In this document: positions 11,565-15,385 of the stretch, piece after piece | How positions within the stretch are numbered: position 1 is the first letter of the stretch | How the letters are laid out: each line of letters starts with the position of its first letter | Position numbers and translations under genes: made by a program | The notes under the pieces: generated by a model | Seen by the model: the letters and a program-made list of their open reading frames with translations, nothing else | What the model was told of the DNA's origin: nothing | Database searches by the model: none | Assembly (NCBI RefSeq): GCF_000384115.1 | Contig: NZ_KB913029.1 | Span: forward strand, 5,121,057 to 5,185,056 | Source of the DNA: Sporichthya polymorpha DSM 43042 | GTDB lineage: Bacteria > Actinomycetota > Actinomycetes > Sporichthyales > Sporichthyaceae | Direction of reading: 5' to 3' | DNA length: 64,000 nt

Positions 11565-13727
11565 TCAGCTCGCCAGCAGCACCAACTGCCGGGTGGCGCG
11601 GGTCATCGCGACGTAGCGGTCGACGGCTCCGGAGACGCCGGTCCCGAACTCGTCGGGGTCGACGAGGACGACGAGGTCGAACTCGAGTCCCTTCGCCGTC
11701 TCGGGGGTCAGGGAGGCGACCCGGGGTCGGTCGGGCAGGTGCGGCTGGTCGGGGGCGCCGATGACCGCGGCGACGCCCTCGGGGTTCGCGGCGAGCCAGT
11801 CGTCGAGGATCGCGGGCAGGTCCGCGGTCGCGCCGACGGTGACGGGGATGCCGCTGCTGCGGATCGAGGTCGGGACGTTGGCGTCGGGCAGGACCGCGCG
11901 GATCACCGGCTCCGCCTTGGCCATGACCTCGGTCGGGGTCCGGTAGTTCACGGTCAGCGTGGTGACGCGGACGGTGTCGAGACCGACGCGGTGCAGCCGC
12001 TCCTCCCAGGTCTCCGGGAAGCCGTGGCGGGCCTGCGCCCGGTCCCCCACGATCGTGAAGCTGCGCGACGGGCAGCGGGCGAGCAGCATCTGCCACTGCG
12101 CGTCGGTGAGCTCCTGCGCCTCGTCGACGACGACGTGCGCGAACGGGCCGGCGTAGGCGTCGACGTCGAGCGCGAGGACCGAGTCCTCGACGAGCACCTC
12201 GCGCATGTCCTGGCCGCCGACGTCGCGGAACATCCACATCAGGCTGTCGTGGTCGTGGTCCGCCTCGATCATGCGGTCGATGACGGCGGACCGCTGCTCG
12301 CGCTCGAGGGCGAGCTCCGCCGCGTTGGCCCGCCGGCGGCGCGCGGCCTCCGGGTCACCGAGCCGCTGCCGCGCAGCGTCGAGCAGCGGCAGGTCGGCGA
12401 CCGTCCAGGGCGAGCCCTCCGGCCGCTGCAGGCGGCGGACGTCCTCGACCGAGAGCCACGGCGCGCAGCGCCGCAGGTACGCCGGCACCGCCCACAGGTC
12501 CGCGACGATGTCCGCGGCCTCCAGCAACGGCCACGTCCGGTGAAACGCCGCCATCAGTTCCCGGTGCTGCCCGAGGAACCGGCGCAACTGGTCCTCGGCG
12601 AGGTCCACCTCCTCGAGTACCTCGCGGTGCTTGTCGACGACGATCGTGACGAGCTCGTCCCAGATCGGCGCGCGGGCGTCGTTGTGCGGCGTCCCCGGGT
12701 CGGCCGCGGCGATGGCCTCCACCCAGTCCTCCGGCGTCAGGCGCACCTCCGCCCACGGTGTCGTGACGGTGAGCGGCTTCGTCGGCGGCTCCTCGTACAA
12801 CGCGACCGCCGCGTCGACCGCCTTCGGCCACGCCGCGACCGCCTTCAGCCGCGCGACATCGGGATCGGGCTCCGGCTGTGCTGACGCTCCCTCAGGTACA
12901 AGGTCGTGCAACGTCGCGACCAGCACGCCCTCCTCGCCCAGGCTCGGCAGGACGTCGGAGACGTACGACAGGTACTGCACGCTCGGCCCGACGAAGAGCA
13001 CGCCGCCGCGCCGCTGCTGCTGCAACCGCGGGTCGGAGTGGACGAGGTAGGCCGCGCGGTGCAGCGCGACGACGGTCTTGCCAGTCCCGGGCCCGCCGTC
13101 GACGACGAGCGCCCCCCGCGAGCCGGCGCGGATGATCGCGTCCTGATCGGCCTGCAAGGTGCCGAGCACGTCGCGCATCCGCTCCGACCGGTGCGCGCCG
13201 AGACTGGCGAGGAACGCCGACTGGTCGTCGAGCGCGGCGTGCCCCTCCAGGCCCTCCGGCGTGAAGACCTCGTCCCAGTAGTCGGTGATGCGCCCGCGGG
13301 TCCACCGGTAGCGGCGCCGGCTCGCCAGCCCCATCGGATTCGCGTGGGTCGCGCCGAAGAACGGCTCGGCGGCCGGCGAGCGCCAGTCGACGAGCAGGCG
13401 CCGTCCGTCCGCGTCGGTGAGCCCGAGGCGTCCGACGTAGACGCGCTCCGAGCCGTCGGCCGGCTGCAGGTGGCCGAGGCACAGGTCGAGCCCGTAGCGG
13501 CGCAGCGTCCGCAGCCGGGCGGTGAGCCGGTGCACCTCCAGGTCCCGGTCGAGCGCCGCCTGGCCCGCACTCACCGGCGCGGCCCGCTCGGCCGCCAGCC
13601 GCTCGGTCAGCTCGGCGACGGTCCGTTCCAGGCTCGCCGCGATCGCCGTGAAGTGCTCCTCGTCGGCGCCGATCAACGCCGGGTCGTCCTTGGCCGCGAG
13701 CCGCTCGGGCAGGTCGAACACGCGCAT
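11565..13727 (-). CDS. helR: HelR-type RNA polymerase recycling motor ATPase (HelD/UvrD-like)
   Basis: A 720-residue superfamily 1 ATPase: Walker A GGPGTGKT (211-218), DEAQEL Walker B, and late helicase motifs (TVNYRTP, VALTRATRQLVLL-like end). The N-terminus (FDLPERLAAKDDPALI) and the DWRSPAAEPFFGATHANPMG region match HelR, the actinobacterial HelD branch that displaces rifamycin from RNA polymerase and confers resistance; HelD proteins in general recycle stalled polymerase. A palindrome resembling the rifamycin-associated element lies about 80 bases upstream. The start ATG 13727 has GAGGGGG upstream. It is downstream of hflX but separated by a hairpin, so likely has its own promoter. The HelR call over general HelD is by memory of sequence. 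Confidence 0.85.
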   Translation of the reverse strand: MRVFDLPERLAAKDDPALIGADEEHFTAIAASLERTVAELTERLAAERAAPVSAGQAALDRDLEVHRLTARLRTLRRYGLDLCLGHLQPADGSERVYVGRLGLTDADGRRLLVDWRSPAAEPFFGATHANPMGLASRRRYRWTRGRITDYWDEVFTPEGLEGHAALDDQSAFLASLGAHRSERMRDVLGTLQADQDAIIRAGSRGALVVDGGPGTGKTVVALHRAAYLVHSDPRLQQQRRGGVLFVGPSVQYLSYVSDVLPSLGEEGVLVATLHDLVPEGASAQPEPDPDVARLKAVAAWPKAVDAAVALYEEPPTKPLTVTTPWAEVRLTPEDWVEAIAAADPGTPHNDARAPIWDELVTIVVDKHREVLEEVDLAEDQLRRFLGQHRELMAAFHRTWPLLEAADIVADLWAVPAYLRRCAPWLSVEDVRRLQRPEGSPWTVADLPLLDAARQRLGDPEAARRRRANAAELALEREQRSAVIDRMIEADHDHDSLMWMFRDVGGQDMREVLVEDSVLALDVDAYAGPFAHVVVDEAQELTDAQWQMLLARCPSRSFTIVGDRAQARHGFPETWEERLHRVGLDTVRVTTLTVNYRTPTEVMAKAEPVIRAVLPDANVPTSIRSSGIPVTVGATADLPAILDDWLAANPEGVAAVIGAPDQPHLPDRPRVASLTPETAKGLEFDLVVLVDPDEFGTGVSGAVDRYVAMTRATRQLVLLAS

Positions 13728-13805
13728 GCGATGAATCCCCCTCGCTGCAGGGCCCTCGGCGAAAGTGCAGCCCTACGGCGGGCGATGATCCGGCACACCC
13801 CACCT

Positions 13806-13820
13806 CTTGCCGCAAGCCCC
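13806..13820 (-). promoter_or_regulatory. Rifamycin-associated-element-like palindrome upstream of helR
   Basis: On the helR strand this reads GGGGCTTGCGGCAAG, with a perfect CTTGC-G-GCAAG dyad. It closely resembles my memory of the RAE, a conserved palindrome upstream of rifamycin-inactivation and helR genes in actinomycetes that mediates rifamycin induction. It lies 79 bases upstream of helR. The right-hand flank (AGGTGGGG) departs from the full symmetric form. Confidence 0.72.
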
Positions 13821-13842
13821 CCAGTGCTCTATACGTTGAAGA

Positions 13843-13865
13843 GGGACGGGGAAGAACCCCGTCCC
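13843..13865. terminator. Hairpin between hflX and helR
   Basis: GGGACGGGG and CCCCGTCCC pair perfectly around AAGAA, 51 bases past the hflX stop. No T-run is present. It probably ends the miaA-dapF-hflX transcript before the helR promoter. Confidence 0.55.
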
Positions 13866-13915: not shown

Positions 13916-15385
13916 TCAGCCGGCCGCGGCGAACGGGGCCAGCTCGGCCGCGAGAGCCTCGCCGACCCGGGCGCGGATGCGGGTGCCGGTCTCGGTGTGC
14001 TCCTCGACCAGCACGTCGCCGTGCTGGTGGACCCGGGAGACGAGACTGCCGCGGTCGTAGGGCACGAGGACCTCGACCTCGACCTCGGGGCGGGGCAGGT
14101 CGGCGGCGATGGCGGCGAGCAGGTTGTCGATCCCCCGGCCGGTGCGGGCGGAGACCACGACCGCGGTCGGTTCCCGGCGCACCAGACGCTCGAGGACGTA
14201 CTCGTCGGCCGCGTCGGCCTTGTTCACCACGACGATCTCGGGAATGTTCCGCGCGTCGATCTCGGCAAGCACCGCGCGGACCGCGGACAGCTGCGCCTCG
14301 GGCTCGGGGTCCGAGCCGTCGACGACGTGCAGGATCAGGTCCGCGCCGGAGATCTCCTCCAGCGTGGAGCGAAACGCCTCGACGAGCTGGTGCGGCAGGT
14401 GCCGGACGAACCCGACCGTGTCGGTGAGCGTGAACTCGCGGCCGTCGGGCGTCGCGGCCCGGCGCACGGTCGGGTCCAGCGTCGCGAACAGCGCGTTCTC
14501 GACCAGGACTCCCGCGCCGGTGATCCGGTTCAGCAGCGAGGACTTGCCCGCGTTCGTGTACCCGACGATCGCGACCGAGGCCACGGCGTTGCGCCGGCGC
14601 TCCGAGCGCTGGGTCTGCCGGGAGGTGCCCATCTCGGCGATCTCGCGGCGGAGCTTGGCCATCTTCGCGCGGATGCGACGGCGGTCGGTCTCGATCTTGG
14701 TCTCACCGGGGCCACGGCCACCGATGCCGACACCGCCGGCACCGGCCCGACCACCGGCCTGGCGGGACATCGACTGACCCCAACCACGCAGACGCGGCAG
14801 CATGTACTGCATCTGCGCGAGCTCGACCTGCGCCTTGCCCTCTCGCGACTTCGCGTGCTGAGCGAAGATGTCGAGGATCAGCGCGGTCCGGTCGATGACC
14901 TTGACCTTGACGACGTTCTCCAGCTGCGTCAGCTGACTGGGCGTCAGTTCACCGTCGCAGATGAGCGTGTCCGCGCCCTCGGTGACGATGACGTCGCGGA
15001 GCTCGCGCGCCTTGCCGGAACCGACGTAGGTCGCGGGGTCCGGCCGGTCGCGCCGCTGGGTGAAGCCGTCGAGGACGACGGCGCCCGCGGTCTCGGCCAG
15101 GCGGCGGAGTTCGAGCAGCGACGTCTCCGCCTCCGCCGCGGTGCCGGAGGTCCAGACACCGATCAGCACGACCCGTTCGAGTCGCAGCTGCCGGTACTCG
15201 ACCTCGGTGATGTCCTCGAGCTCGGTCGAGAGCCCGGGAATCCGGCGCAGAGCGTGACGATCGGCGAGGTCGAGCTGGTCACCGTCACGGTCCGCGTCGT
15301 CGAGAGCGCCCTCGTCGAGAGCGGCGGAGAACTCGTCGAAGTTCTCGAAGTCGTCGAACTGCGGCTGCCGTGAGGTGCTCGTCAT
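13916..15385 (-). CDS. hflX: HflX, ribosome-splitting GTPase
   Basis: A 489-residue GTPase that splits stalled or hibernating 70S ribosomes. The HflX N-terminal domain contains TYVGSGKARELR and a glycine-rich linker before GPGETKIETDRR, a family signature. GTPase motifs: G1 GYTNAGKS (275-282), G3 DTVGF (322-326), G4 NKAD, G5 VSARTG. An acidic N-terminal extension of about 45 residues is typical of actinobacterial members. The ATG overlaps the dapF stop (ATGA), so translation is coupled. Third gene of the miaA-dapF-hflX operon. Confidence 0.96.
   Translation of the reverse strand: MTSTSRQPQFDDFENFDEFSAALDEGALDDADRDGDQLDLADRHALRRIPGLSTELEDITEVEYRQLRLERVVLIGVWTSGTAAEAETSLLELRRLAETAGAVVLDGFTQRRDRPDPATYVGSGKARELRDVIVTEGADTLICDGELTPSQLTQLENVVKVKVIDRTALILDIFAQHAKSREGKAQVELAQMQYMLPRLRGWGQSMSRQAGGRAGAGGVGIGGRGPGETKIETDRRRIRAKMAKLRREIAEMGTSRQTQRSERRRNAVASVAIVGYTNAGKSSLLNRITGAGVLVENALFATLDPTVRRAATPDGREFTLTDTVGFVRHLPHQLVEAFRSTLEEISGADLILHVVDGSDPEPEAQLSAVRAVLAEIDARNIPEIVVVNKADAADEYVLERLVRREPTAVVVSARTGRGIDNLLAAIAADLPRPEVEVEVLVPYDRGSLVSRVHQHGDVLVEEHTETGTRIRARVGEALAAELAPFAAAG

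Follow-up and report, generated by a model that had tools for sequence, protein, structure and literature searches.

The product of helR, a known gene, knocks rifamycin off RNA polymerase, and genes controlled by the RAE underlie inducible rifamycin resistance across actinomycetes. In Streptomyces venezuelae, helR (SVEN_6029) encodes a HelR-group class II HelD-family protein and has an RAE on its 5' side (Surette et al., 2022, as far as that work is reported in PMC10719064 and PMC8655204). The mycobacterial genes helR of M. abscessus (MAB_3189c) and helD of M. smegmatis (MSMEG_2174) likewise encode RAE-controlled polymerase rescue factors, with the RAE overlapping the -35 of the proximal promoter, as described for promoter 2 of M. 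smegmatis helD, and loss of the upstream half of the RAE abolishes helD induction in M. abscessus (PMC10719064). Another alarm, that of helD/pps in B. subtilis, combines a sense and an antisense promoter, the antisense promoters having 19-bp spacers; the antisense promoter of helD represses and rifampicin relieves this repression, the promoters converge 39 bp apart, steric overlap abolishes induction, and RNA polymerase itself is proposed as the sensor (PMC12802891). For the RAE, the same account mentions two sense-oriented promoters and, as of January 2026, states that its reader and mechanism are open (PMC12802891). Both the kind of gene and the kind of element considered here are already known; what is added is a gap-free 63-column footprint with a specific antisense hexamer, apparently a longer, two-promoter architecture around the RAE, which makes RAE sensing testable and can help to distinguish a regulator on the palindrome from rivalry between two promoters for the very polymerase that the drug attacks.

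The 64-kb stretch of Sporichthya polymorpha DSM 43042 DNA analyzed here (the window) carries helR at 11565-13727 on the minus strand, a 720 aa open reading frame predicted to encode a HelR-branch class II HelD-family RNA polymerase rescue ATPase. Its start codon is the ATG at 13727-13725, and a likely ribosome-binding site, GAGGGGG, was recognized by eye at 13737-13743 of the same strand, 9 nt 5' of the ATG. The HelR-branch identity proposed in the initial annotation was borne out by the model NF041254 (motor_HelR), which matched residues 4-718 with 1212 bits against a cut-off of 750, while both sister models remained under their cut-offs (HelR_2, 428 bits against 1100; HelD_MYCSM, 384 bits against 1051); the protein is under the cut-offs of NF041258/NF041465, the subfamily of MAB_3189c and MSMEG_2174. 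A phylogeny with the protein outside HelR had been named as refuting this claim, and in a quick IQ-TREE analysis of 47 proteins, including six paralogues (among them M. smegmatis HelD and a second HelD-like protein of the same genome), the window protein grouped with those of its own genus and family inside the RAE-linked HelR clade, from which M. smegmatis HelD and the other paralogues were split at an SH-aLRT of 100. These results support the assignment of the protein as HelR rather than HelD, and from its family it may be expected to release rifamycin from RNA polymerase.

Regarding the protein itself, among solved structures that of M. smegmatis HelD (6YXU) is the nearest in sequence (E 3.5e-102). 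A Walker A motif of ATPases, GGPGTGKT, is found at residue 211 and the sequence DWRSPAAEPFF at residue 114. The region of the primary-channel (PCh) loop is present and shorter than in M. smegmatis HelD, so far as an alignment with gaps allows the two to be matched; in that gapped alignment, which does not pair the loops residue by residue, DHDHDS of the window protein stands opposite the acidic PCh tip (E484/D485). The upstream context of the gene also differs from that of the mycobacterial genes. The second HelD-like protein of the genome (C1:130954-133203) is 40% identical to the window HelR and below every HelR/HelD cut-off, its best score being 657 bits for NF041258 against 1100, and no RAE footprint was found upstream of its gene; in this genome, as in S. 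venezuelae, just one HelD-family gene carries an RAE.

The dyad CTTGC-G-GCAAG in front of helR, at 13806-13816 of the minus strand, had been noted in the initial annotation and was confirmed, with the correction that 78 nt, and not 79, separate its last base from the ATG. It matches the RAE core CTTGCSGCAAG and is part of GGGGCTTGCGGCAAG (13806-13820); the minus strand from 13822 down to 13798 reads GGGGGG CTTGCGGCAAG AGGTGGGG. The place of the RAE 19-mer is taken by GGGGCTTGCGGCAAGAGGT (13802-13820, minus strand), in which the core and the left flank are intact and the right flank is degenerate, with AGGT instead of [AG]CCC, a change that the initial annotation had missed. The same AGGT is found in the congener G002, and the full 19-bp palindrome GGGnCTTGCSGCAAGnCCC was absent from the window genome and from G002 in a pattern search. 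Since that palindrome is incomplete, the site is referred to here as RAE-type and partly degenerate, and since the right flank is AGGT in this strain and in one congener, rifamycin induction is plausible but unproven. The exact sequence GGGNNCTTGCNGCAAG occurs once in the 5.5-Mb genome, at the window site alone. Moreover, a DNA profile trained on 196 related elements, with neither the window nor four relatives from its family among them, returned a single site in the 64-kb window with an E value of 5.5e-10, and model R1, of whose 53 training rows the window is one, returned a single site genome-wide (E 3.3e-11), leaving helR as the only gene of this genome with an RAE-type element. The dyad before helR is thus real and beyond chance, and the element is a genuine, though partly degenerate, RAE-type element before a genuine helR.

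The conserved extent of the RAE was examined in a sample consisting of helR loci from named genomes and from relatives, together with RAEs located by pattern searches of the class and of one genus. Of 393 class genomes, 160 had the full palindrome pattern, and the reversed pattern that served as control was present in 3. The genes 3' of the RAE in 103 loci included helR, rox (rifampin monooxygenase), rph (rifamycin phosphotransferase) and Arr, besides glycosyltransferases taken as Rgt by sequence inspection only. Footprint statistics were obtained from 180 distinct elements (helR, rox, rph, arr and rgt) aligned without gaps on the core, and an alignment across gene types comprised 53 rows and 63 columns with zero gaps. 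Numbering the first C of CTTGC as 0 on the sense strand, positions 0-3 and 7-10 were invariant in 180/180, as expected of elements that were themselves collected with core-containing patterns, and the GGG and CCC flanks were 97-100% conserved, each CCC position at 97-98%.

Outside the 19-mer, A(-21), T(-17), A(-16), A(27) and T(31) were kept in 177-179 of the 180 elements, a constancy close to that of the palindrome core, and the conserved unit therefore extends well past the published 19-bp RAE. On the helR side, NANNNT occupies positions 26-31 in 177/180, mostly as CAGAAT or CACAAT; on the far side, TANNNT is read on the antisense strand from -16 to -21 in 176/180. The palindrome carries TTGCSG on each strand, and each outward hexamer lies exactly 19 bp from the respective TTGCSG. 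At the window locus, the sense -35-like TTGCGG lies within the RAE (13810-13815, minus strand), 19 bp from the -10-like GATCAT (13785-13790, minus strand), reproducing the overlap of the RAE with a proximal sense -35 at fixed spacing; on the opposite strand of the palindrome, symmetry points to a putative antisense -35-like TTGCCG (13807-13812, plus strand), 19 bp from the -10-like TACGTT (13832-13837, plus strand). Given TTGCSG on both strands and outward -10-like hexamers at exactly 19 bp, the RAE has the look of a common -35 core serving two divergent promoters that exclude each other, as far as sequence conservation can indicate. The antisense hexamer is also found in 20 of 21 mycobacterial helR loci with a recognizable RAE, which belong to a different subfamily, and there it varies only in the middle (N) positions. 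The sense half of the footprint is consistent with the published RAE/-35 overlap in M. smegmatis, and no description of the antisense half was found in the RAE literature as surveyed through reviews.

Other arrangements were considered for the same sequences. Promoters converging at the RAE were rejected, with TANNNT fitting just 28/180 elements in sense orientation (-22 to -17) and 1/180 in antisense orientation (32 to 27), and a -35 upstream of the convergent sense hexamer being no commoner than chance. The antisense TANNNT is oriented in the direction opposite to helR; the promoters at the RAE would thus diverge and share overlapping -35 boxes, in contrast to the converging promoters of B. 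subtilis, and because the arrangement differs, the exact B. subtilis logic cannot hold at the RAE. When the outer parts were examined for two-fold symmetry, the centre of the RAE came only 2nd of 53 centres (z 1.6), so symmetry is claimed for the spacings alone. An RNA hairpin within the RAE itself was likewise rejected, the window sequence giving no stable structure (-3.1 kcal/mol, z 0.24); complementarity covaries chiefly at the two pairs farthest out (-6/16 and -7/17). A scan for consensus promoters and terminators found nothing, its 16-18 bp spacer limit leaving out promoters with 19-bp spacers.

Just beyond the antisense -10-like hexamer, upstream of it relative to helR, lies a perfect 9-bp hairpin, GGGACGGGG/CCCCGTCCC (13843-13865), which as sense RNA has a folding energy of -19.7 kcal/mol (z -4.4). 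It stands between hflX (13916-15385) and the dyad, in agreement with the initial description of a hairpin separating the two, and could also be taken for a terminator of hflX, one that lacks a T run. Stems of at least 5 pairs occur near the same place in 142 of the 180 elements, and perfect stems of at least 8 pairs in 27% of them, compared with 0.6% in shuffles. Because this place, near -28, is largely fixed although the upstream genes differ, the hairpin seems to belong to the RAE element in most lineages; in mycobacterial arr loci it is mostly missing (a stem of at least 6 pairs in 1/5). Mismatches in the upstream hairpin, counted as an indicator of the strand concerned, comprised 30 G-T and 40 A-C and favored neither strand clearly. 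The product of the neighboring hflX is itself described, for M. abscessus, as a resistance factor against antibiotics that rescues ribosomes (PMC13001253), and hflX-helR was rejected as a conserved pair, the adjacency being confined to the genus of the window.

Several readings of these features compete, and they concern both the standing of the element in this strain and the meaning of its parts. The dyad might be a chance palindrome in GC-rich DNA, short dyads being common; the leave-one-out E value, the single match genome-wide and the occurrence before the same gene across genera refute this, leaving it a negligible probability. It is also unlikely, on our estimate, that in this genus the RAE survives only as a decayed relic, with helR constitutive or otherwise controlled. 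The right flank is lost in the window and G002 and kept wholly or in part in the congener G001 and in two further family members, and the window and G002 have the lowest profile scores of their family, as decay would have it, but both retain the core and the left flank, as well as the hairpin and the two -10-like hexamers with their 19-bp spacings.

The upstream hexamer, in turn, may be read in two directions. The conserved 7-mer CANNNTA can be taken as a sense CANNNT (NANNNT in 177/180), which would make it a promoter P1 in tandem with P2, rather than half of a divergent pair, and in M. smegmatis the start of P1 is indeed placed some 20 bp 5' of the RAE (PMC10719064). Against this, no -35 is found 16-19 bp upstream, a 4/6 match occurring in 10.6% of loci and in 10.2% of shuffles; the hairpin fills the would-be -35 place in most loci; TANNNT fits the antisense hexamer in 176/180 elements and the sense one in 28/180; and the A at -16, kept in 178/180, is needed by the antisense reading alone. 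Divergent promoters are therefore favored, since CANNNTA lacks an upstream -35 and its last A serves only the antisense reading, and tandem sense promoters seem rather improbable. A stronger competitor, to which we give only slightly less than an even chance, is a dedicated factor, dimeric on the 19-bp RAE, that would act on the sense promoter as repressor or activator and let go or engage on sensing rifamycin or the drug-bound polymerase, the antisense hexamer being incidental or part of its binding site. A 19-bp palindrome across a -35 is a classic operator, and such a factor is favored by reviews (PMC12802891, PMC10719064). The GGG and CCC flanks, 97-100% conserved, lie outside any -35, and because such strictly kept flanks fit no -35 they point to a DNA-binding protein and favor some role for one. 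No such factor is known, however, and it would need to be present in every RAE lineage; alone, it predicts neither the outward TANNNT at exactly 19 bp in 176/180 elements nor a mycobacterial variation limited to the N positions.

Returning to helR, its control by an RAE-type, rifamycin-responsive promoter is probable. This is favored by the HelR score and tree, by the genome-unique RAE, by an E value that is not circular, by the hexamers at fixed spacing and by the position of RAEs upstream of helR, rox, rph, arr and rgt, known rifamycin-resistance families; the degenerate right flank, the changed RpoB residues described below and the existence of genuine helR genes without an RAE speak against it. 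In the absence of drug, transcription of helR by the sense promoter would be weak: the -35 of this promoter lies in the palindrome, where an antisense promoter would compete for it and/or an RAE-binding regulator would cover it. Binding of rifamycin to RNA polymerase would release this hold and helR would rise, and HelR would then clear stalled polymerase from promoters and eject the drug, a form of target protection. With overlapping -35 boxes, RNA polymerase could occupy one promoter at a time, so that either drug-bound polymerase tilts the competition at the shared -35, with the polymerase itself as sensor as in the proposal for B. subtilis, or a regulator on the RAE senses the drug. That promoter competition is an essential part of drug sensing can be suggested tentatively from the conserved hexamers; a dedicated RAE-bound regulator as the sensor, possibly together with the two promoters, comes close to an even prospect, and the remaining probability goes to sensing by neither. 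With a little more reserve than for competition at helR, the RAE may be proposed in general as the overlapping -35 pair of two outward promoters with 19-bp spacers, at which polymerase exclusion, with or without a helper protein, would sense rifamycin for helR, rox, rph, arr and rgt.

The initial annotation had reported no rifamycin-modifying gene in the window, and homology searches extend this to the whole genome. No Arr and no Rox were found in the window genome, the best match to Rox being 36% identical over about 250 aa, and no Rgt at E 1e-10 in a search run without a positive control. A PEP-synthase-like protein, 40% identical to Rph over 312 aa, was not called Rph because its 357 bits are below the cut-off of 999. 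With these searches negative, HelR appears to be the sole recognized rifamycin defense found in this genome, which, together with the degenerate right flank of the RAE, sets the strain apart from S. venezuelae. The initial reading was largely right in this respect, no Arr, Rox, Rph or Rgt having been found, as it was for HelR and the RAE core; it fell short in that the 19-bp RAE is incomplete and the conserved unit longer, its ready rifamycin response is better regarded as a possible one, and its term self-protection should not imply that the strain produces rifamycin. A single rpoB locus was found in the window genome (C1:2930736-2930942). The rifampicin-binding region of its product contains QTNPLAG, where QNNPLSG is usual; the T and A presumably replace N518 and S522 (E. 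coli numbering), and they may alter rifamycin sensitivity.

Some further loci of the sample deserve mention. No RAE was detectable at eight genuine helR genes, of which three belong to Micromonosporaceae and five to Geodermatophilaceae, where close relatives do bear an RAE. At five others, the RAE lies about 1.1-1.5 kb 5' of helR, leaving space for one gene, and because a Rgt-like gene fills this gap at the related RAE locus L213, the arrangement suggests RAE-rgt-helR operons. A complete RAE footprint directly 5' of a DrrA-type ABC-transporter ATPase gene (L161) makes an RAE-controlled exporter possible, and at L165 the open reading frame after the RAE starts like rox and departs from the rox sequence after about 15 residues, being perhaps a broken rox. 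Finally, at four mycobacterial loci, GAACATACGTTC, which resembles an SOS (LexA) box, is located a few tens of bases 5' of the helR RAE.
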